Shown: positions 11,570 to 22,458 of the stretch, piece by piece | Position numbering within the stretch: position 1 is the stretch's first letter | How the letters are laid out: each line of letters begins with the position of its first letter | Source: Hellea sp. | GTDB lineage: Bacteria; Pseudomonadota; Alphaproteobacteria; Caulobacterales; Maricaulaceae | Assembly: GCA_023300105.1 (NCBI GenBank) | Contig: JALZWM010000076.1 | Location: 1 to 37,738, forward strand | Reading direction: 5' to 3' | Length of the DNA stretch: 37,738 nt | Notes under the pieces: generated by a model | Seen by the model: the letters and a program-made list of their open reading frames with translations, nothing else | Databases searched by the model: none | What the model was told of the DNA's origin: nothing | Translations under genes and position numbers: made by a program

Positions 11570-11914
11570 TTATTCAGAACTGGTCTGTTTAACAGCTAAT
11601 ATTGCGTCAATAAGATCCTGTGGTACTTCATCAGGCACATCGATATCTTCATGAGGAAATATGTGACTTTTAGCTTTGTAAGTCGCGATGTAAGTTTTTA
11701 AAAAATTACGGCACATCGGGCATACTTTCATATGCCGTTTAAATAAAGTAACTTGCTTGGTTGTTAATGTTCCCTCGACATATTCTATGATAAAATCATT
11801 GAATTCGCGGCAAGTAATCATGCGGGGCGATACACGAAAATACCACGCGCCCAGAGGTGATATAGGTTGAATTAGAGTATCCAGTTTTAAGCGTTTTAAA
11901 TCAATATACGCCAC
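11570..11914 (-). CDS. zf-HC2-like anti-sigma factor (second of a tandem pair)
   Basis: 114 residues. The core is a zinc-binding anti-sigma (ZAS/zf-HC2) motif: Cys in 'ITCREFNDFI', then His-x3-Cys-x2-Cys in 'RHMKVCPMCRNFL'. It has no membrane helix, so it would be a cytoplasmic anti-sigma or zinc sensor. It is clearly a duplicate of the gene at 11940-12260: both share 'RNFLKTYIATYKAK', 'CREFN' and an N-terminal segment around 'YFR'. It lies 25 bases after its twin and at the end of the sigma operon. ECF sigma factors paired with soluble ZAS proteins often respond to thiol oxidation or metals; that is family knowledge, not visible here. Confidence 0.8.
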   Translation of the reverse strand: MAYIDLKRLKLDTLIQPISPLGAWYFRVSPRMITCREFNDFIIEYVEGTLTTKQVTLFKRHMKVCPMCRNFLKTYIATYKAKSHIFPHEDIDVPDEVPQDLIDAILAVKQTSSE

Positions 11915-11939: not shown

Positions 11940-12260
11940 TTATTCATCAACTCCAAGTTTAGGTACGGATGATTCAAGGTCATGGATGTCTTTATAATGG
12001 ATGTCTTTATAAAGGTATAGGTGGTCTTTAGCTTTATAGGTTGCAATATAAGTCTTTAAAAAATTACGGCAGATGGGACAAGCATGCATATGCCGTTGAA
12101 ATAAAACGTTTTCCTCTTCGGTAAGGTTTTGCTCGATGTGATCAAAAATGTGATTATTGAACTCACGGCATGTGATGTGTTTTGGGTTCAGTCGAAAATA
12201 CTGACCCACTAAGAATCTAGCGGGTTTTCCAATAAAGTATTCGAAGGCACGGCTCATCAT
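11940..12260 (-). CDS. zf-HC2-like anti-sigma factor (first of a tandem pair)
   Basis: 106 residues with the ZAS/zf-HC2 zinc ligands Cys ('ITCREFNNHI'), His and two Cys in 'RHMHACPICRNFL'. Its ATG overlaps the sigma gene's stop (4 bases), the usual arrangement for a sigma/anti-sigma pair, so I expect it to be the direct anti-sigma of the ECF factor. It is soluble, without a membrane segment. The C-terminal tail contains 'YKDIHYKDIH', the product of a perfect 15-base tandem duplication. The second copy downstream may have diverged to bind another partner or sense another signal. Confidence 0.85.
   Translation of the reverse strand: MMSRAFEYFIGKPARFLVGQYFRLNPKHITCREFNNHIFDHIEQNLTEEENVLFQRHMHACPICRNFLKTYIATYKAKDHLYLYKDIHYKDIHDLESSVPKLGVDE
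11982..12011. repeat. Perfect 15-base tandem repeat inside the anti-sigma gene
   Basis: ATGGATGTCTTTATA occurs twice in a row (plus-strand reading), adding five residues in frame and producing YKDIHYKDIH in the protein tail. Being in frame and perfect it is probably recent, and its copy number might vary between strains. Confidence 0.85.
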
Positions 12261-12895
12261 GACGAGTGCTGCATCTGTTTAGGGAAGAAAAAGGTGTCGA
12301 ATTCAAGTTTGATTTTTATTCGGGCGCGATGGACTCTTACTTTTACATTGCTTTCTGAAATTTCTAAAACTTTTGCAATTTCTTTAACTGAGAAGTCTTC
12401 ATAATCTTTCAGCAGAAAGGGTATTCTGTAAATATCGTCTAAATTCTCTATGGCTCTATTCAGGGTTTGTAGGGTTTCTTTTTTTAGCATATCTTCTTCT
12501 GGGGTAGAGGTCTCGCTCCATAAGGGTGCATTTAGAAGACCTGCACTATTATAGCTTATAACATCGTCAAGATTTGCGTGAAAATCTGGCAGACGCTTAT
12601 TTTTACGTAAAATATCAATGGTTTTATGTGTAATAATGCGGCCAATCCAATTGGGTAAAGCTTTCTCGTGGCGCACAGTGTTTTTCTTTTTATAGGCGGT
12701 CAATATGCCTTCTTGTACGGCATCTTCCGCTAGGCTTTTACATTTGAGGTATCCATAGCTTTTTCGAATATATCGCCCATAATTTTCATTTATAATGGAC
12801 ATGAACTGACTATGAGTGATGTTTGCTGAGCCGCTAGTCTGAGGGAGACTATCATTAATTTCAGGGTCGACGTTATGATTAATAGGGTTGTTCAT
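12257..12895 (-). CDS. ECF-family RNA polymerase sigma factor
   Basis: 212 residues. Region 2 covers about 30-100 and includes 'RYIRKSYGYLKCKSLAEDAV', 'QEGILTAYKK' and 'LPNWIGRIITHKTIDILRK'. A linker of about 40 residues follows, then region 4 with a helix-turn-helix at about 147-200 ('LDDIYRIPFLLKDYEDFSVK', 'EIAKVLEISESNVKVRVHRA'). There is no region 3, so it is an ECF (group 4) sigma. It heads an operon with two zinc anti-sigma-like proteins, the first overlapping by 4 bases. Upstream lies a weak copy of the TGTAAC/CGTC element (12949-12975), suggesting autoregulation, and better copies precede the Rieske operon, the DoxX operon and the response regulator gene. Confidence 0.92.
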   Translation of the reverse strand: MNNPINHNVDPEINDSLPQTSGSANITHSQFMSIINENYGRYIRKSYGYLKCKSLAEDAVQEGILTAYKKKNTVRHEKALPNWIGRIITHKTIDILRKNKRLPDFHANLDDVISYNSAGLLNAPLWSETSTPEEDMLKKETLQTLNRAIENLDDIYRIPFLLKDYEDFSVKEIAKVLEISESNVKVRVHRARIKIKLEFDTFFFPKQMQHSS

Positions 12896-13167: not shown

Positions 13168-15144
13168 ATGAGTACTGCTATAGAATGGCATAAGGTTGCC
13201 GATTTAGATGAGCTTCCTGAAGGACGCTTGAAGTCTGCTAAGGCAGGCCCGCATGCCATTGCTCTATCACATTTTGATGGACAATATGCAGCTATGGATA
13301 ATCGGTGCCCCCATCAAGGTGGGCCGCTCGGTGAGGGTTCTATTGAAAAAGGTATAGATGGAAAGTGTTGGATTCGATGTCCTTGGCACGGTTGGGACTT
13401 TGATCCCTTAACAGGTAAGCCTCCGGGTGGTCATGAGGATACAGGGCAAGAGACCTATCCTGTAGAGGTTCGTGAAGATGGTATCTATGTTGGTCTGCCG
13501 CCAGAAGAAGATCATGAACGGACAGTAACTGATGTTATGGCTGAAACTATGGTCAATTGGGGCGTAACAAGCGTCTTTGGCATGGTTGGACATTCTAATT
13601 TAGGGTTGGCAGATGCTGTTCGCCGTCAAGCTGTTGGCGGCAATATGACTTATTACGGTATTCGCCACGAAGGCGCAGCGTCTTTTGCGTGTTCGGGTTA
13701 CGCTAAGCTTACGGGATTGCCAGCGGCCTGCTTGGCGATTGCGGGCCCTGGCGCTACTAATTTGATGACAGGATTATGGGATGCTAAGGTTGACCGTGCG
13801 CCAGTTCTTGCTTTGACAGGACAGGTTCAAGTTCAAGTCTTTGGACCAGGTGTTTTCCAAGATATCGACCTCAAGGCTGCCTTTGCGCCTGTAACTAAAT
13901 TCAGCCAAAATGTATTGGCGTCGTCTAATCATGCTGAGCTTGCCAATTTGGCTTGTAAATCGGCCCTAGATAATATGGACGTCGCGCATTTGATTTTCCC
14001 AGATAATGTTCAAACGATGCCAGCTGCGGAAGATGCGAAAGCTGGATCGCCCAAAGGGCGTATGGCAGACCGGCGTATTATGCCGCCAGAAGCCTCTTTT
14101 AATGAAGCCCTTAGCGCGCTGAAATCTGCGAAACGTCCAATGATTATTGTCGGTTATGGTGCAAAAGCTGCGATGGGGGATATTATCTCATTTGCTGAAC
14201 GCATTAATGCTCCAATAGCGACAACGTTTAAGGGTAAAGGTCAAATTCCTGACAATCATCCTTTAGCCGCAGGTGTTTTAGGCCGTTCAGGCACACCGAT
14301 TGCCAGCTGGTTTATGAATGAATGTGATTTGATAATCGCTCTTGGAAGCTCGTTCTCAAATCATACGGGGATTGAAAAATCTAAGCCTATTATTCAGGTG
14401 GACTTTGACCCGCTACAATTAGGTCGATTCCATGAGATTGACTTCCCCGTTCTGGGTGAAATTGGCGTTACTGTAAACGCTTTCTCTGCAGCCATTAAGA
14501 CGCCTAAAATGGAAAACCAAAGTGATGAAATAGCGGATCGCTGGAAGATATGGCGAGCTGAAAAAGAGAATCGCCGCGGGGACGCGAGTGAAAAAGGTTT
14601 GAATTCTGCTGTGATTTTCGACGTTGTTTCAACGCTAACGCCAAATGATGCTGTCATAGCTGTTGATGTTGGTAACAATACCTATTCCTTTGGGCGTTAT
14701 TTTGAATGTAAGGGACAAAGCGTTCTTATGTCAGGTTACTTGGGGTCTATTGGATTTTCATTCCCTGCAGCGATGGGCGCATGGGCTGCAACGCAAGATA
14801 AGGCTGAATTCAAAGGCCGAAAAGTCGTGTCTATCAGCGGTGATGGTGGCTTCGGTCAATATGCGATGGAATTCACAACAGCCGTTCAATACGGTATGAA
14901 TATAACCCATATTCTTTTGAATAATTCGCAATTAGGAAAAATATCAAAAGAACAGCGTGCCGGTGATTGGGCTGTATGGCAAACTGACCTGCACAATCCT
15001 AGTTTTGCAGGTTTTGCAAGGGCTTGTGGTGGACATGGTATGCGGGTTACAAAAGCTGAAGATTTACATGCTGCTATTGAAGCGGCACTCGCCTATGATG
15101 GGCCGTCTTTGGTCGAAATTATTTCTGATCCTGACTTAATCTAA
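13168..15144 (+). CDS. Rieske [2Fe-2S] domain fused to a thiamine pyrophosphate enzyme (pyruvate oxidase/acetolactate synthase-like)
   Basis: 658 residues. Residues 1-110 form a Rieske ferredoxin domain with ligands Cys47-x-His49 and Cys71-x2-His74 ('CPHQGG', 'CPWHGWDF'). Residues about 118-655 are a complete three-domain TPP enzyme: N-terminal pyrimidine domain with catalytic Glu168 ('RHEGAAS'), middle domain, and C-terminal domain with the TPP/magnesium motif Gly558-Asp559-Gly560 ... Asn585-Asn586. Relatives such as pyruvate oxidase and acetolactate synthase bind FAD in the middle domain and act on pyruvate; the exact substrate here is not visible. A Rieske cluster on such an enzyme suggests that electrons from 2-oxoacid oxidation leave through iron-sulphur rather than to oxygen. 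It is the first gene of the Rieske operon; a good ribosome site (GAGGGT) lies 10 bases before the ATG. The usual TPP enzyme is about 540-600 residues, so the Rieske part is a true extra domain. Confidence 0.88.
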   Translation: MSTAIEWHKVADLDELPEGRLKSAKAGPHAIALSHFDGQYAAMDNRCPHQGGPLGEGSIEKGIDGKCWIRCPWHGWDFDPLTGKPPGGHEDTGQETYPVEVREDGIYVGLPPEEDHERTVTDVMAETMVNWGVTSVFGMVGHSNLGLADAVRRQAVGGNMTYYGIRHEGAASFACSGYAKLTGLPAACLAIAGPGATNLMTGLWDAKVDRAPVLALTGQVQVQVFGPGVFQDIDLKAAFAPVTKFSQNVLASSNHAELANLACKSALDNMDVAHLIFPDNVQTMPAAEDAKAGSPKGRMADRRIMPPEASFNEALSALKSAKRPMIIVGYGAKAAMGDIISFAERINAPIATTFKGKGQIPDNHPLAAGVLGRSGTPIASWFMNECDLIIALGSSFSNHTGIEKSKPIIQVDFDPLQLGRFHEIDFPVLGEIGVTVNAFSAAIKTPKMENQSDEIADRWKIWRAEKENRRGDASEKGLNSAVIFDVVSTLTPNDAVIAVDVGNNTYSFGRYFECKGQSVLMSGYLGSIGFSFPAAMGAWAATQDKAEFKGRKVVSISGDGGFGQYAMEFTTAVQYGMNITHILLNNSQLGKISKEQRAGDWAVWQTDLHNPSFAGFARACGGHGMRVTKAEDLHAAIEAALAYDGPSLVEIISDPDLI

Positions 15145-15165
15145 TAAAAAACTGGATTTGAACTC

Positions 15166-16797
15166 ATGAAAAGTGAAACTATGAAACCCGTTGCTATAGC
15201 TGTATGGAATGACCTTGAAGACCGTAAACCTGCAGGGGCGTTAGTCGCTAATGTTGACTTAGTCGTTGTCCGTTATGAAGACAAAGTATCTGTATTATAC
15301 GGGCGTTGCCTGCACCGTGGTGCCTTATTAGAAGATGGTCATGTGGATGGTGATAACCTCATTTGCGGTGTTCATAATTGGGATTTCCGTATTGATACGG
15401 GCGTCAGTGAGTATGACAATAAAGAAGCGCTCAACAAGTTCACATCATGGATTGAGGACGGAACCGTCTATGTCGATGAGACTGAGGTTGCTGCTTGGCA
15501 CGTGGATAACCCGCAGCCTTACAGCCGTGACACTTATTTGGGCCAATATGCGGACCCGTCTCACGGTGACCCTGCTGAGCCTTACACAGGCTTAATTCAA
15601 TCCTATGCGAAAGACGGCTTGTCTAAGACGGGTCATCACGGGGTAAGTTCTGCCATGGGCGTGCCGCTCAATGAATTGCCACGTTGGGAAGATATTCAAT
15701 TCATTACGGCGCAGTTGCATAAAGTCCCTTTATTGGACGATGACGCTGTTGGAACAAAAACTATCATTGGGCCACGGGCTAAAAAGCCTCTCGAACTTGA
15801 TATTCCAATCTTTGTCTCAGACATGAGTTTTGGGGCTTTGTCAGCATCCGCCAAAGTCGCTTTGGCGTTAGGCGCTGAGAAGGCTGGTACGGGTATATGT
15901 TCAGGCGAAGGCGGCATGTTGCCAGAAGAGCAAGAGGCCAATAGTCGTTATTTTTATGAGCTTGCCTCAGCGCGGTTTGGCTTTTCCATGGATAAGCTTT
16001 CGAAAGTTCAAGCCTTTCATTTTAAAGGCGGGCAAGGCGCTAAAACGGGTACTGGTGGACATCTCCCCGGGGAGAAAGTTAAAGGCGCAATCGCGAAAGT
16101 TCGGGGTTTGCCTGAAGGCGAGACTGCAATATCCCCGTCGCGTTTTCCAGACTGGACAACAACAGCTCAAATCAGAGACTTTGCACAAGAAGTCCGTGAG
16201 TATACTGGCGGTATTCCAATCGGCTATAAACTCTCCGCTCAGCACATTGAAAAAGATATTGATGCCGCTCTCGAAGTTGGCGTTGATTATATTATTCTTG
16301 ATGGCCGCGGTGGCGGTACAGGGTCTGCGCCCATCATTTTCCGCGATAATATTTCTGTTCCGACAATTCCTGCGCTCGCAAGAGCCCGTAGACATTTAGA
16401 TAGGACTGGAAACAAAGACGTTACTCTCGTGATAACGGGCGGCTTACGTACGCCAGCAGATTTTGCCAAGGCTTTAGCCTTAGGCGCAGACGCTATTGCT
16501 GTCTCTAATTCAGCGCTACAAGCCATTGGCTGCCTTGGTATGAGAGCTTGTCATACCAATAATTGTCCTGTTGGTATCGCGACACAAAAAGAACATCTTG
16601 TTGCGCGTTTGATTGCTGAAAAATCAGCGGAACAACTAACACGTTTCTTCGACACATCCGTCTCCTTAATGAAAATCTTAGCGCGTGCTTGTGGGCATGA
16701 TGACTTTAATAAATTTACTCCAGAAGACTTAGTGACGTGGAAGCGGGATATGGCCGATTTATCGGGTGTTAACTTCGGCGGGGTTGGATTCAAATAA
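15166..16797 (+). CDS. Rieske domain fused to FMN-binding glutamate synthase-like domain
   Basis: 543 residues. N-terminal Rieske domain with Cys48-x-His50 and Cys67-x2-His70 ('CLHRGALLEDG', 'CGVHNWDF'). Residues about 145-530 match the glutamate synthase central/FMN domain (PF01645): 'FVSDMSFGALSASAKVALAL', 'GEGGMLPEEQ', 'KGGQGAKTGTGGHLPGEKV', 'ILDGRGGGTGSAP', 'TGGLRTPADFAKALALGADA'. The [3Fe-4S] ligands are Cys456, Cys462 and Cys467. There is no glutaminase (GATase2) domain, as in archaeal-type and GltB2-like proteins, so glutamine hydrolysis is not expected from this chain. The reaction could be ammonia-dependent glutamate formation, glutamate oxidation, or something else with FMN chemistry. 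It lies 21 bases after the Rieske-TPP gene. Two ATGs (15166, 15181) are possible starts. It ends in TAATG overlap with the next small gene. Confidence 0.88.
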   Translation: MKSETMKPVAIAVWNDLEDRKPAGALVANVDLVVVRYEDKVSVLYGRCLHRGALLEDGHVDGDNLICGVHNWDFRIDTGVSEYDNKEALNKFTSWIEDGTVYVDETEVAAWHVDNPQPYSRDTYLGQYADPSHGDPAEPYTGLIQSYAKDGLSKTGHHGVSSAMGVPLNELPRWEDIQFITAQLHKVPLLDDDAVGTKTIIGPRAKKPLELDIPIFVSDMSFGALSASAKVALALGAEKAGTGICSGEGGMLPEEQEANSRYFYELASARFGFSMDKLSKVQAFHFKGGQGAKTGTGGHLPGEKVKGAIAKVRGLPEGETAISPSRFPDWTTTAQIRDFAQEVREYTGGIPIGYKLSAQHIEKDIDAALEVGVDYIILDGRGGGTGSAPIIFRDNISVPTIPALARARRHLDRTGNKDVTLVITGGLRTPADFAKALALGADAIAVSNSALQAIGCLGMRACHTNNCPVGIATQKEHLVARLIAEKSAEQLTRFFDTSVSLMKILARACGHDDFNKFTPEDLVTWKRDMADLSGVNFGGVGFK

Positions 16798-16988
16798 TGT
16801 TGAATATTGCACAATATATTTCATACGGTCTGGGCATTTATGTTCTGATTGGCTTGGTCTTCGGTTTATATTTTATAACGCTAGGTCTTCGCCGCGAAGC
16901 TCTTGCTGGTAGGGGGATTATCATAAGGTTCATGCTTCTGCCTGGAGCTATTTTAATTTGGCCATTATTGTTGAAGGCAAAAACATGA
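16797..16988 (+). CDS. 63-residue membrane protein of the Rieske operon
   Basis: Two hydrophobic segments ('GLGIYVLIGLVFGLYFITLG' and 'FMLLPGAILIWPLLL') around a basic loop 'RREALAG'. I do not recognise the family with certainty. Its start overlaps the previous stop (TAATG) and its stop overlaps the next ATG (ATGA), so it is translated as part of the operon. A role as a small subunit or anchor of the membrane electron-transfer complex is plausible from context only. Confidence 0.75.
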   Translation: MLNIAQYISYGLGIYVLIGLVFGLYFITLGLRREALAGRGIIIRFMLLPGAILIWPLLLKAKT

Positions 16989-17092
16989 AACGTGCTCACC
17001 GTAAAGTTCACGCAACCATTTGGATTATAATGCCTGTTGTACTGTTTTTGACTCTCTGGACCGCAATTTCAATCTCAGGAGTTGGATCATGA
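16985..17092 (+). CDS. 35-residue single-helix membrane protein
   Basis: ATGAAACGTGCTCACCG... encodes MKRAHRKVHATIWIIMPVVL (first 20 residues), then a hydrophobic segment ending in 'SISGVGS'. A basic N-terminus followed by one membrane helix is typical of a small subunit of membrane redox complexes. Both ends overlap their neighbours by four bases (ATGA at 16985 and at 17089), which is strong evidence that it is a real, coupled gene despite its length. Function unknown; it probably partners the cytochrome b-like protein encoded next. Confidence 0.7.
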   Translation: MKRAHRKVHATIWIIMPVVLFLTLWTAISISGVGS

Positions 17093-18120
17093 GTCATGAT
17101 TATGTACCTGTTCAATGGAACCGGCAGAAGTATTTTTACGACGCAATCTTGCTCGCGGCTGTCTTTATCTTTCTAGTAATATTTATTGTTGCTGGGACAA
17201 AGACTGAGGCTGGCAATATGATGATCTTGATGATTCGTAGCTTTGGGGCTTGCGCGATTGTTCTCCTGCATCTCGTTCTTGCCATTGGGCCGTTGGCGCG
17301 ATTGTCAGACCGTTTCAAACCTTTGCTTTATAATCGTCGTCATTTTGGCGTCATTACCGCATTGATAGGCTTGGTCCATGCGGGTTTGGCCTTAATGATG
17401 TATCACGGTATGGGTGTCATTAACCCAATCGCCTCGGCCATTGGGGGTTACGGTAATTACGGCACCCTCATAGAGTTTCCATTTGAAAGCCTCGGACTTA
17501 TCGCATTAATAATACTGCTGATTATGGCGGCAACAAGTCATGATTTTTGGCTCTCTCGCCTAAGCCCGCCCGTTTGGAAAGGGCTGCATATGAGTGTCTA
17601 TTTAGCTTATGCTGCATTAATCGGACATGTCGCGTTAGGAACAGCGCAATTTGATAAAAGTAACGGGCTTTTTTGGGGATTGGCTGTTGGCGCGGTTCTG
17701 ATTAGCGGATTACATATCTCAGCACTGCTCAAAGGCCGCAGGCTTGATACACAGGCTGATATCAATACGACCTGGGTGAACATTGGGGATCCCATGTCTA
17801 TTCCGCTTAATAAGGCTTTGACGATTACGCCGCAAAACGGAGAACGCATTGCGATTTTCCGTCATGCCAAAGGCATTTCGGCAGTAGACGCAGTCTGTTC
17901 GCATCAAAATGGTCCTCTAGGTGAAGGTTGCATTATTGGCGGCCTTGTCACATGCCCATGGCATGGATTTCAGTTCGACCCTGAAACCGGCGAAGCGCCA
18001 GCACCGTTTACGGATAAAGTACAGACCCATGCTGTTAAAATTGAAAATGGTAACGTCTGGGTCAATGCAGAACCTGATCCATTTGGAACAACGCGTATTG
18101 CTATACAGGTGCCGTCATGA
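17089..18120 (+). CDS. Ferric reductase-like (cytochrome b) membrane protein with C-terminal Rieske domain
   Basis: 343 residues from the ATG at 17089; an in-frame upstream start at 17020 would run inside the previous small gene and is not used. Residues about 18-230 hold six to seven helices of the ferric reductase-like domain, with candidate heme ligands in 'LLHLVLAIG', 'RRHFG', 'GLVHAGL', 'LHMSVYLAY' and 'LIGHVAL'. Residues about 245-335 are a Rieske domain: Cys270-x-His272 and Cys289-x2-His292 ('CSHQNGPLGEG', 'CPWHGFQF'). A heme b membrane domain joined to a Rieske cluster suggests electron transfer across or at the membrane, perhaps taking electrons from the soluble Rieske-fused enzymes upstream. 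It overlaps both neighbours by 4 bases. No flavin or NAD(P)H domain is present, unlike classical ferric reductases. Confidence 0.87.
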   Translation: MSHDYVPVQWNRQKYFYDAILLAAVFIFLVIFIVAGTKTEAGNMMILMIRSFGACAIVLLHLVLAIGPLARLSDRFKPLLYNRRHFGVITALIGLVHAGLALMMYHGMGVINPIASAIGGYGNYGTLIEFPFESLGLIALIILLIMAATSHDFWLSRLSPPVWKGLHMSVYLAYAALIGHVALGTAQFDKSNGLFWGLAVGAVLISGLHISALLKGRRLDTQADINTTWVNIGDPMSIPLNKALTITPQNGERIAIFRHAKGISAVDAVCSHQNGPLGEGCIIGGLVTCPWHGFQFDPETGEAPAPFTDKVQTHAVKIENGNVWVNAEPDPFGTTRIAIQVPS

Positions 18121-18869
18121 GCGATGAAAAAGACTTCTTTGTTGGGTATGGCTCCCTGCCTGATAAAGATAGACGCTTTATTTTAAAGGCCGTGCCAGCT
18201 GGGCTTATAGGTATTGGCGGGGCTGCCGCATTTATTGGGACTCGGGCAGCGTCCGAAGGTGGTGGTAAATGGGAAACTGGAACGCCTGTGATCTTACAGG
18301 GACGTATCGGGTTTCATCCTTATCCTGTACTTTGGGTTGACGGAATTGGACATGTTATTGCGGGCATTGGAAAAGTTCATGCTGACCCTTACTGCAGAGA
18401 GTTTGAAGGGCAAAGTGTTGAAGTTAAAGGTGTCAAAATTACACGTAATGACTGTTTCATGCTTGGCGTTGCTGAGGGTGATATAAAACCAATTGTTAAG
18501 GTGTTACCTCGTATCCCGCCGCTTACTCAAGTTAATGATGTTTCTCTTCTTGGTGAGATTTTGGACGCTCAATGTTACATGGGTATCATGAACCCAGGAT
18601 ATGGTAGAACGCACCGTGGATGTGCTACGCAGTGCATACGCGGCGGACAACCCGTCTTTTTCTCAATGGGTATTCGTGGAAGCGACTCTTCTGGGGGTGT
18701 TCAAACTTGTGGCGGTAACGGATATCTCCTTGCTAATGCTTCAGGTGATAAAGTAAATTCCGAAATTTTAAACGATATCGCTGTACCAGTGACCATTGAT
18801 GCGAAGTTACAAAAAATCGGTAATCTTTACCGGCTTGTCTATAAGTCTGGCAGTTTGAAAAGACTTTAA
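18117..18869 (+). CDS. Membrane-anchored protein with conserved-looking cysteine motif, Tat-like N-terminus
   Basis: 250 residues. The N-terminus has a twin-arginine-like motif 'DRRFILKAVPAG' followed by a hydrophobic helix (about 24-42), similar to the anchor of Rieske and other Tat-exported redox subunits. The mature part has a mainly beta first half and a Cys cluster Cys153 ... Cys169-x3-Cys173 ('DAQCYMGIMNPG', 'HRGCATQCIRGG'), with further cysteines near 93 and 116. I have seen similar 'Cys...HR-x-C-A-x2-C' hypothetical proteins but know no function. It could bind a metal cofactor or form a disulphide. Overlaps (4 bases upstream, 1 base downstream) place it firmly in the Rieske operon, probably as the periplasmic partner of the cytochrome b-like protein. 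Confidence 0.75.
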   Translation: MSDEKDFFVGYGSLPDKDRRFILKAVPAGLIGIGGAAAFIGTRAASEGGGKWETGTPVILQGRIGFHPYPVLWVDGIGHVIAGIGKVHADPYCREFEGQSVEVKGVKITRNDCFMLGVAEGDIKPIVKVLPRIPPLTQVNDVSLLGEILDAQCYMGIMNPGYGRTHRGCATQCIRGGQPVFFSMGIRGSDSSGGVQTCGGNGYLLANASGDKVNSEILNDIAVPVTIDAKLQKIGNLYRLVYKSGSLKRL

Positions 18870-20080
18870 TGACTTTAAATTTATTCCTCATCTTTGGCGT
18901 AGTCTTCTTCGGATTTTCGCTTGTTTCAAAACGCATACAAGGCACGGTTCTAACACCGCCTATATTATTTACCCTTGGTGGTTTGTTGTTGTCGCGTATC
19001 TTAGCGGAGACAGCAGGACTAACTTATAATGAGGGTAGCTTACATACTCTCGCTGAGCTCACGCTTATTCTCGTTCTCGCGGCGGACTCCTCACAAATAT
19101 CATTATCTGAACTTCGCAAAATGAAAGCCATTCCTGTTCGCCTTTTGTTGGTTGCTTTGCCTCTTATAATGTTAATGGGTACCCTCGTCGGTTATCTCAT
19201 TTTTCCTGATATAGGTTGGTATCAGGCGGCACTCATTGCCGCTATTCTAGCGCCAACTGACGCGGCTTTGGGGGCTTCAGTCTTAGCTGATAAAACAATA
19301 CCATTAAAGGTCCGTCAGGGGCTGAATGTTGAAAGTGGTCTTAATGATGGTATTGCTCTGCCTGCTGTATTGTTTTTTGCTTGCTTCCTTAATCTTACAC
19401 ATCAAACAGGCGAAGAAAATTGGCTCGCCTTTCTAAGCCTCCAGCTTATTATGGGGCCAATTGCAGGTATTGCTGTGGGTTGGATTGGCGGGCATCTTAT
19501 TGCATTGGCTGCTAAAAAGAATTGGATGACATCTGAATTCCAAGGCGTTGCCGCTATTGCACTTGCCGTCATCGCTTTTGCTGTAGCTGAAGTATGCCAT
19601 GGTAATGGTTTTATTGCAGCATTCGTTGCAGGTCTAACTTACGGTAATCTTCATGTGAGTTATTCAAAGTTTCTTCATGAATTTACAGAGACTGAAAGTC
19701 AGTTCCTCGCTTATTTAACATTTTTCTTATTTGGCGCATTGATTCTACCTGAAGCCTTACACCACATCACAGGGCAAATCGTATTATACGCCTGTTTAAG
19801 TCTAACCCTCGTAAGGATGCTACCTGTTGCACTCTCAATGTTAGGTATGAAACTTGATCTTGCAACGACTGCATTTATGGGATGGTTTGGTCCGCGCGGC
19901 TTAGCCTCACTTTTATTTGCTTTACTCATTTTGGAAGACTTGCATGTTGAGCAGGCTGAATTTGTTCAAGCTGTTGTCGCCACCACAGTCATTCTAAGCG
20001 TCATATTGCATGGCCTCACGGCTGCGCCGCTTAGTAAGAAATTAGGGCAAGCTCAAATCAGTAAAGACCTATCAAGTTAA
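18869..20080 (+). CDS. CPA1-type cation/proton antiporter
   Basis: 403 residues with about 12-13 membrane helices, typical of NhaP-type monovalent cation/H+ antiporters. The ion-binding region is visible as 'AILAPTDAALGASVLAD' with a following 'VRQGLNVESGLNDGIALP' (about 148-165), the Asp-containing motif of CPA1 transporters, and 'MGWFGPRGLASLLFALLI' near the C-terminus. It lacks a C-terminal TrkA/CorC domain. It should exchange Na+ or K+ for H+ at the inner membrane. Its ATG overlaps the preceding stop (TAATG), so it is co-translated with the redox proteins, perhaps to balance charge or pH from their activity. Confidence 0.87.
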   Translation: MTLNLFLIFGVVFFGFSLVSKRIQGTVLTPPILFTLGGLLLSRILAETAGLTYNEGSLHTLAELTLILVLAADSSQISLSELRKMKAIPVRLLLVALPLIMLMGTLVGYLIFPDIGWYQAALIAAILAPTDAALGASVLADKTIPLKVRQGLNVESGLNDGIALPAVLFFACFLNLTHQTGEENWLAFLSLQLIMGPIAGIAVGWIGGHLIALAAKKNWMTSEFQGVAAIALAVIAFAVAEVCHGNGFIAAFVAGLTYGNLHVSYSKFLHEFTETESQFLAYLTFFLFGALILPEALHHITGQIVLYACLSLTLVRMLPVALSMLGMKLDLATTAFMGWFGPRGLASLLFALLILEDLHVEQAEFVQAVVATTVILSVILHGLTAAPLSKKLGQAQISKDLSS

Positions 20081-21972: not shown

Positions 21973-22458
21973 TTAACCGTTGAGGTCTGCCGCACTCCAC
22001 AATTTTGTGTAAAGCTCACAATGAATGATGATGGACTTGTATTGCGAGACGTCAACATCTGTAGGAATAACGTAGCTCTGAGCGCCTTTATTTGAATCTA
22101 AAGGAGAGATTACGAGTGAACCCTCAAGGGCATTTTTACTATTAACGTCTTCTGATGTGAGAGGAGATAAGAAAAGTTTTAAATCTGGAGCATTCTTAGT
22201 CTTAAACGCCTCATCGAGCGATACAGTTGTAACGCCATTTTTTGTTTCTAGTGTCCAAGTTCCACGAGACTTAAATTTTTTCTTTGTCCAGATACCTGAT
22301 GCAATTGTCTTGTCCATTTGTGCGGTAGGCGCTTCAATAGTCGTAGGTGATACCGCTTGAACAGCTTCGATACTACTTGTTTGCGCGAGAGCAAAAGAAG
22401 AGACCATTAATCCGAGTGCGGAAACTAAAACAGTTGTGTTTTTTCGTGTGATTTTCAT
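21973..22458 (-). CDS. Exported DM13-domain protein
   Basis: 161 residues. Signal peptide 'TTVLVSALGLMVSSFALAQT', cleavage after ALA. The rest is a DM13-like beta-sandwich of about 110 residues: 'GTWTLETKNGVTTVSLDEAF', 'APDLKLFLSP', 'GAQSYVIP', 'VSQYKSIIIHCELYTKLWSA'. The pattern PDL...lfL, Q-x-Y-x-IP and a single Cys in 'IHCEL' are the family marks. DM13 domains occur beside DOMON redox domains in eukaryotes and a redox role has been proposed, unproven in bacteria. It lies 123 bases downstream of the rhodanese gene on the same strand, perhaps a two-gene unit of exported thiol/redox proteins. Confidence 0.82.
   Translation of the reverse strand: MKITRKNTTVLVSALGLMVSSFALAQTSSIEAVQAVSPTTIEAPTAQMDKTIASGIWTKKKFKSRGTWTLETKNGVTTVSLDEAFKTKNAPDLKLFLSPLTSEDVNSKNALEGSLVISPLDSNKGAQSYVIPTDVDVSQYKSIIIHCELYTKLWSAADLNG

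Follow-up and report, generated by a model that had tools for sequence, protein, structure and literature searches.

An operon with three Rieske-domain fusions in Hellea sp.: a probable undescribed electron route between metabolism and the cell membrane

The window analysed here is a 37,738-nucleotide stretch of Hellea sp. DNA (assembly GCA_023300105.1, contig JALZWM010000076.1, positions 1 to 37,738 of the forward strand). Positions 13168-18869 hold six coupled genes, A to F, three of which encode Rieske-domain fusions: a thiamine pyrophosphate (TPP) enzyme (A), a glutamate-synthase-type flavin mononucleotide (FMN) enzyme (B), and a ferric-reductase-like membrane protein (E). Because this gene set is found again in distant phyla, the operon is probably an undescribed route for electrons linking metabolism with the cell membrane. 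The large domains are all of known kinds; the wiring between them, and the proteins C, D, and F, are without description in the literature searched. Full-text searches returned no description of the operon, the cassette, or a Rieske-TPP enzyme, with most subscription papers lying beyond the reach of the search. We know of no characterised TPP enzyme that is wired by a Rieske cluster. An initial annotation, made from the letters of this DNA, had stated that the system matches no known complex. This holds for the system as a whole in the literature searched, but the Rieske-ferric-reductase architecture itself was listed in 2013, in the accessible text of a survey (PMC3591440).

Rieske-domain fusions and gene organization

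Gene A (13168-15144, plus strand) encodes an N-terminal Rieske domain (approximately residues 6-108) and a pyruvate-oxidase/acetolactate-synthase-type TPP enzyme, with the Pfam Rieske domain and the N, M, and C domains of TPP_enzyme. Gene B (15166-16797, plus strand) encodes a Rieske domain and a glutamate-synthase-type FMN domain, as assigned by Pfam (Rieske, Glu_synthase) and by alignment to glutamate synthase large chains. Gene E (17089-18120, plus strand) encodes a membrane protein with a six-helix ferric reductase domain (FRD) and a C-terminal Rieske domain (Pfam Ferric_reduct and Rieske, a structure model, and fold matches). The Pfam Rieske domain (PF00355) was above its cut-off in A (E=5.6e-17), B (E=6.8e-12), and E (E=1.5e-12), and the ligand motifs are intact (CPHQ..CPWH in A, CLHR..CGVH in B, and CSHQ..CPWH in E). 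Alignments contained 35 rows for A and 45 for B; those for E and F contained the window protein with 74 of 75 and 70 of 75 relatives, respectively. The Rieske ligands are kept in 34 of the 35 A rows (the remaining row is without that region), in at least 97% of the B rows, and in all 75 E rows. By ligands and Pfam cut-off, A, B, and E are Rieske proteins, with binding of a [2Fe-2S] cluster predicted. Seven places in the genome carry a Rieske domain, three of them within this operon; Glu_synthase and TPP_enzyme_C are each present at three places, this operon included.

The small genes lie between and after the fusions. C (16797-16988, plus strand) encodes a 63-aa membrane protein with a conserved R..PG...WP motif (alignment, hydropathy), and D (16985-17092, plus strand), which overlaps C and E, encodes a 35-aa single-helix protein with RxxHxxxW ahead of the helix. 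F (18117-18869, plus strand) encodes a protein with an N-terminal membrane helix, an OB-like domain, and the residues C153-H166-C169-C173 (alignment of 71 rows; model). A and B are separated by a 21-base gap, B and C are joined by TAATG, and the C/D, D/E, and E/F junctions are each ATGA. The initial annotation had described a coupled operon with three intact Rieske sites, in a TPP enzyme, an FMN enzyme, and a heme-binding ferric-reductase-like membrane protein, and with two tiny membrane proteins, C and D, at overlapping junctions. The open reading frame (ORF) positions and the overlaps from B onward, the Pfam domains with their conserved ligands, and the fold matches of E agree with this. Its six genes stand as well, but not the end at F: an NhaP-type Na+(K+)/H+ antiporter gene (18869-20080, plus strand; Pfam Na_H_Exchanger) is coupled to F by TAATG and adds at least one gene.

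Conservation of the C-D-E-F core

The E loci were the best 80 from a scan of named genomes with the E alignment, to which two Rhizobium plasmids were added (82 loci). The scan's total of 588 related loci is not a count of E, since the scan also matched a generic Rieske pattern and ran with a loose E-value. The best 80 share 43-51% identity over nearly the whole protein, and the 75 E rows cover ten named phyla. Genes at the loci were crude longest-ORF calls. C was called at 81 of the 82 loci (lenient profile threshold) and F at 78. A strict motif scan placed D at 49 loci, one of them misplaced, and missed D genes that are visible. Among 99 relatives, own genome included, E was found in 17 (matches >150 bits; G030 split), and among 385 genomes from the class, F had a match in 18. 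The distance matrices of E and F were correlated (r 0.83, n=82; not reached in 5000 permutations), with a contribution from shared ancestry; L073 was left out of all such correlations. From co-occurrence at E loci and in genomes, C-D-E-F is a conserved core and A-B an optional linked pair. C, E, and F are also located on large Rhizobium plasmids (L097, L098), and five plasmid records carry E; hence, the cassette can travel.

Co-occurrence of A and B with E

By the initial annotation, a lack of co-conservation would have counted against its proposal. The comparison did not refute it: the three fusions are found together much more often than chance would give, within the order, the phylum sample, and distant phyla, under several gene arrangements, and in unlinked positions as well. 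Of the 82 E loci, 22 have a called B and 18 a called A. When neighbour genes were clustered, no other enzyme was as common as B, at 25 loci, and A, at 21; an SDR-type cluster came next at 16. The 33 fetched A loci, mostly fetched via E, carry E at 29, Rieske-B at 24, and both at 23. At least five gene orders were observed (A-B-E; A divergent from B-E; B-E-F-A; E-F-B-A; B-A-E), and A, B, and E occur together in Pseudomonadota, Acidobacteriota, Planctomycetota, and Bacteroidota.

Genome samples gave the same picture. Among the 99 relatives, A is present in 11 and Rieske-B in 12; A occurs with E in 8, B with E in 10, and A with B in 8 (hypergeometric p 7.5e-5, 3.4e-7, and 2.5e-6, respectively, with the own genome removed and relatedness ignored). 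In 398 genomes of the phylum, E was found in 7, A in 5, and Rieske-B in 12, and all five A genomes carry E and Rieske-B (A with E, p 1.5e-8, calculated likewise). Rieske-B counts were read from match starts; G616 (one stop, starting at residue 112) was left out, and the partial genes in G594 and G727 were counted. A search for unlinked A took in 50 of the 62 E loci without an adjacent A. In these 50 genomes, A was found elsewhere in 9 (63-67% identity) and Rieske-B in 15. Eight of the nine genomes with unlinked A also carry Rieske-B (p=9e-5, relatedness ignored), and the unlinked A adjoins Rieske-B in five of the nine. Two cultured hosts of E, Pseudovibrio ascidiaceicola DSM 16392 (L120) and Parvularcula maris (L172), have Rieske-B and gave no match to A.

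Chance clustering of Rieske motifs was rejected, because the three fusions co-occur also when unlinked. Single horizontal transfer of a fixed operon is unlikely to be the whole story, since the E tree implies 12 changes of A and 15 of B and the gene orders differ.

Enzymes A and B

Among solved structures, E. coli PoxB (pyruvate:ubiquinone oxidoreductase) is the nearest relative of A (232 bits); it oxidises pyruvate and donates electrons to the membrane. Against the NCBIfam equivalogs for pyruvate oxidases/dehydrogenases, A scored at best 380.2 bits, with a cut-off of 742, and it lies below every NCBIfam equivalog cut-off shown.

B matches PF01645 Glu_synthase with 295.3 bits and has a cysteine triplet (CxxxxxCxxxxC) and a RACHTNNCPVG-type motif. 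No Pfam match to a glutaminase domain was found in B, and its alignment to solved glutamate synthase chains is confined to residues 218-495. The seven non-Rieske relatives of B seen here (L193:6608-8140, L194, L195, L196, L197, L200, and L075:9526-11058) bear N-terminal CDGSH motifs, which are Pfam-supported in two. In G006, of the same genus as the window, A comes after such a CDGSH-type relative (L075). Judged by sequence, two unrelated His-ligated [2Fe-2S] modules, Rieske and CDGSH, replace each other on one GltS-type core.

Rieske-B genes without E were seen near stress-type genes, namely methionine sulfoxide reductase (L186, L190) and cytochrome b561 (L186, L187). The surroundings in L186 also include YceI, nitroreductase, OYE-type, GST, pirin, and CDGSH genes.

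Membrane protein E

The model of E has a predicted local distance difference test (pLDDT) value of 89.0, and PF01794 Ferric_reduct scores 45.7 bits against a cut-off of 28. For the membrane part, the fold matches are to STEAP2 (Z 17.0 over 199 aligned residues, 3.6 A) and to NOX5 (Z 16.5 over 185 residues, 3.5 A); for the C-terminal part, the match is to the carbazole dioxygenase Rieske ferredoxin (Z 15.3 over 107 residues, 1.9 A). By its Ferric_reduct domain and the modelled six-helix fold, E is assigned to the FRD superfamily.

Over the 75 E rows, the mean number of Lys and Arg residues is 3.2 at the N-terminus, 4.4 in loop 2-3, 1.7 in loop 4-5, and 3.2 after helix six; it is 0.4 to 0.7 in loops 1-2, 3-4, and 5-6. 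From this distribution, E is predicted to be N-in/C-in, with its Rieske domain cytosolic. These topology signals mean that the Rieske domain could be reachable by A and B.

R83, H97, H167, and H180 of E are present in all 75 rows and align with five MsrQ-like proteins; eight had been picked, and L203, L204, and L205 were excluded because their frames were wrong. Three further histidines are conserved, H85 and H151 in 75 of 75 rows and H209 in 72. In the accessible text of the FRD survey, the YedZ/STEAP pattern is described as Arg replacing the first canonical His, with the other three His kept (PMC3591440). E has this ligand pattern. An inner heme of E on H85/H167 is possible from the conserved residues.

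Proteins C, D, and F

C, D, and F of the window match no Pfam or NCBIfam family; C has one sub-threshold match (E=0.09). In Acidobacteriota, Verrucomicrobiota, Cyanobacteriota, Bacteroidota, and others, relatives of D at several loci are approximately 130-180 aa long. They are located between C and E, and four of the longer D proteins had no Pfam match. At L103, a GH43 glycosidase gene lies between D and E and was judged incidental.

C153, H166, C169, and C173 of F are invariant in 71 of 71 rows. The F model (pLDDT 89.5) has a single N-terminal helix that fits a membrane anchor and a helix pair carrying the Cys-His-Cys-Cys residues. Residues 49-135 matched OB folds with a best Z of 7.0 (76 aligned, 3.7 A), a level prone to common arrangements. 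Foldseek returned no match at E<=0.001, and no solved sequence relative was found at E<=1. Assignment of F to a known family was rejected on these results and on the lack of a Pfam or NCBIfam match for the window protein. Two of the 71 F relatives weakly match DUF5818 (best E 5.6e-4), a possible link to a wider family, and two match OapA_N. The initial annotation had called F twin-arginine translocation (Tat)-like, a description that was dropped: the strict motif [ST]RRx[FLMI][LMK] is present in 0 of 71 rows, any RR within the first 45 residues in 27 of 71, and the N-terminal helix fits a membrane anchor. An 85-93-aa protein is encoded between F and A in L183 (L183:9113-9370) and L184 (L184:7116-7397); the L183 copy is without a Pfam family.

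Genes flanking the operon

A malic enzyme gene begins 26 bases past the NhaP-type antiporter gene. Both come after F in the window, as they do in L057; L085 and L087 have malic enzyme after F. A relative of the antiporter lies within the fetched stretch at 7 of the 82 E loci and also in L183, where it is ahead of B. Just past malic enzyme, on the minus strand, 21973-22458 encodes a protein with a DM13 (electron transfer) domain.

Upstream, a divergent gene on the minus strand (12257-12895; Pfam Sigma70 r2 and r4) encodes an extracytoplasmic function (ECF)-type sigma factor, a possible regulator. It is accompanied by two anti-sigma-like zf-HC2 genes (11940-12260 and 11570-11914, minus strand; Pfam zf-HC2) and, nearby, a gene with a weak match to MauE/DoxX. 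A relative of the sigma factor is likewise divergent next to the operon in L183. Promoter-like sites in the window were not in excess (22, with 23.6 in shuffled sequence). Terminator-like sites were barely above the shuffled level (14, with 11.0), and neither kind of site was used. The Rfam scan of the window returned tRNA only.

Proposed electron route and alternatives

We propose that A and B oxidise their substrates and pass electrons via their Rieske clusters to E and across the membrane to F, as one redox system. We regard this account as evenly balanced between right and wrong. It is built on gene content, domains, ligands, topology signals, and co-occurrence; from these we infer the direction of flow, the substrates, the number of hemes, the contact of A and B with E, and the role of F as acceptor. 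By analogy with PoxB, A would catalyse the oxidative decarboxylation of a 2-oxo acid on TPP. B, as an FMN enzyme of the glutamate synthase type, would act on an amino acid and could supply the 2-oxo acid of A, so that B and A perhaps act in sequence. Their own Rieske clusters would hand single electrons to the cytosolic Rieske domain of E, which occupies the place of the flavin dehydrogenase domain in NOX enzymes and ferric reductases. The b heme or hemes of E would carry the electrons outward, with H97/H180 on the outer side and possibly H85/H167 on the inner side. F may accept them, its Cys-His-Cys-Cys site being the next carrier or a reductase centre, and C and D may be small subunits. Where A and B are missing, other donors would have to serve E; SDR genes are upstream at 6 of 26 scanned E loci, and nothing ties SDR to E.

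A wider claim is that the system is categorically new, with the Rieske domain as a common plug. An oxidative TPP enzyme and a GltS-type amino-acid oxidoreductase, working one after the other, would deliver single electrons directly to a NOX-like E in which a Rieske ferredoxin has taken over from the dehydrogenase domain; F would be a new periplasmic Cys/His acceptor, and the core, widespread in bacteria, would take other donors in the absence of A and B. We hold this more tentatively, at somewhat below even confidence. If true, the proposal would add a transmembrane electron route to bacterial bioenergetics and a TPP enzyme wired by a Rieske cluster. It would also give a context to the C, D, and F families, which are unannotated in the window and found with E across ten named phyla. 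The Rieske/CDGSH interchange on one core makes an electron-gate role in GltS-type enzymes directly testable.

Several observations weigh against the proposed route. Most E loci have neither A nor B alongside, which indicates that the membrane module is independent of them. A is found without E in 3 of 11 relatives (G006, G011, G095) and Rieske-B without E in 2 of 12 (G011, G035); in the phylum sample, E is missing from 7 of the 12 genomes with Rieske-B, and these seven belong to family f189. The distance matrices are correlated for A and E (r 0.83, n=30), B and E (r 0.55, n=37), and A and B (r 0.79, n=25), none reached in 5000 permutations, but these Mantel correlations and p-values still include shared ancestry. 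On the E tree, A and B give too few differing independent pairs to reach 0.05. Finally, the PoxB segment GFVAMEM is GKISKEQ in A and is so kept in almost all 35 A rows; pyruvate is therefore perhaps not the substrate. The Lys of GKISKEQ might hold a second carboxylate, which would favour a dicarboxylic 2-oxo acid. The earlier claim that soluble Rieske enzymes donate to the membrane Rieske protein thus stands in part: co-occurrence and the predicted cytosolic Rieske domain of E favour it, and the many E loci without A or B and the genomes with A or Rieske-B but no E do not.

The same observations bear on other readings. Electrons could run in reverse, from quinol or the periplasmic side through E, whose cytosolic Rieske domain would supply B and A; B would then catalyse a reductive amination, as a ferredoxin-dependent glutamate synthase does. 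Glutamate synthases receive electrons from Fe-S donors, B aligns to them, and gene content and topology fit either direction; however, B has no glutaminase domain, and PoxB, the nearest solved relative of A, donates electrons to the membrane. We consider reverse flow unlikely. In another reading, equally unlikely, C-D-E-F has a donor of its own and works like MsrPQ as a reductase for periplasmic repair or stress, while A and B form a metabolic pair apart from it, linked to it by no more than shared regulation and, often, location. This reading agrees with the absence of A and B beside most E loci and with the R-H-H-H pattern common to E and MsrQ-like proteins. It is kept alive by the ECF sigma factor with its zf-HC2 genes upstream in the window and by the surroundings of E-less Rieske-B, with methionine sulfoxide reductase, nitroreductase, OYE-type, pirin, GST, and CDGSH genes in L186 and methionine sulfoxide reductase in L190. 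However, A and Rieske-B track E when unlinked, all three share one kind of cluster, and F is not an MsrP-type molybdoprotein by Pfam.

It is more improbable still that the three Rieske domains exchange no electrons with each other and all depend on one diffusible reductase or carrier whose gene lies elsewhere. Since CDGSH replaces Rieske in relatives of B, such a module may plug into a variety of partners, and some genomes have A and Rieske-B without E. Yet neither the recurring clusters of neighbour genes nor the tally of flanking genes, both of which took in a part of the neighbours (family scans covered 26 of the 28 upstream genes and 36 of the 42 downstream genes, with A and B set aside), showed such a reductase, and this reading would leave the association of A and B with E unexplained.

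Comparison with known systems

Like PoxB, A has the TPP enzyme fold and the catalytic RHE and GDG..N motifs; unlike PoxB, it has an N-terminal Rieske domain and is without the PoxB-type C-terminal tail. The CDGSH-glutamate synthase fusion, classed in the accessible text of PMC3174974 as a type 5 CISD, shares with B an N-terminal Fe-S module, His ligation, and a GltS FMN domain (60-68% identity over the catalytic part). It has tandem CDGSH, by Pfam in the two examined, where B has Rieske.

MsrQ (YedZ) is described, in the text available of PMC5676040 and PMC5449189, as a six-helix FRD membrane protein that sends electrons to periplasmic MsrP. Judging by its title, a 2004 paper treats fusions of YedZ to electron carriers. 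MsrQ-like proteins share the R83/H97/H167/H180 pattern with E. E adds a cytosolic Rieske domain and the invariant H85 and H151, and its partner would be F, not a molybdoprotein. E scored 29.6 bits with the NCBIfam equivalog for MsrQ, against a cut-off of 130, and no Pfam domain of an MsrP-type molybdopterin partner was found in F or the other window genes tested. The accessible text of the 2013 FRD survey gives a bacterial FRD model with Rieske (M4) as an electron-transfer extension and makes no mention of C, D, F, A, B, or the operon (PMC3591440). The NOX/ferric reductase proteins NOX5 and STEAP share the modelled membrane fold of E, and a C-terminal redox domain on the cytosolic side, as predicted for E, is a further common feature. 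In place of the NADPH/FAD dehydrogenase of NOX enzymes and ferric reductases, E carries a Rieske ferredoxin domain.

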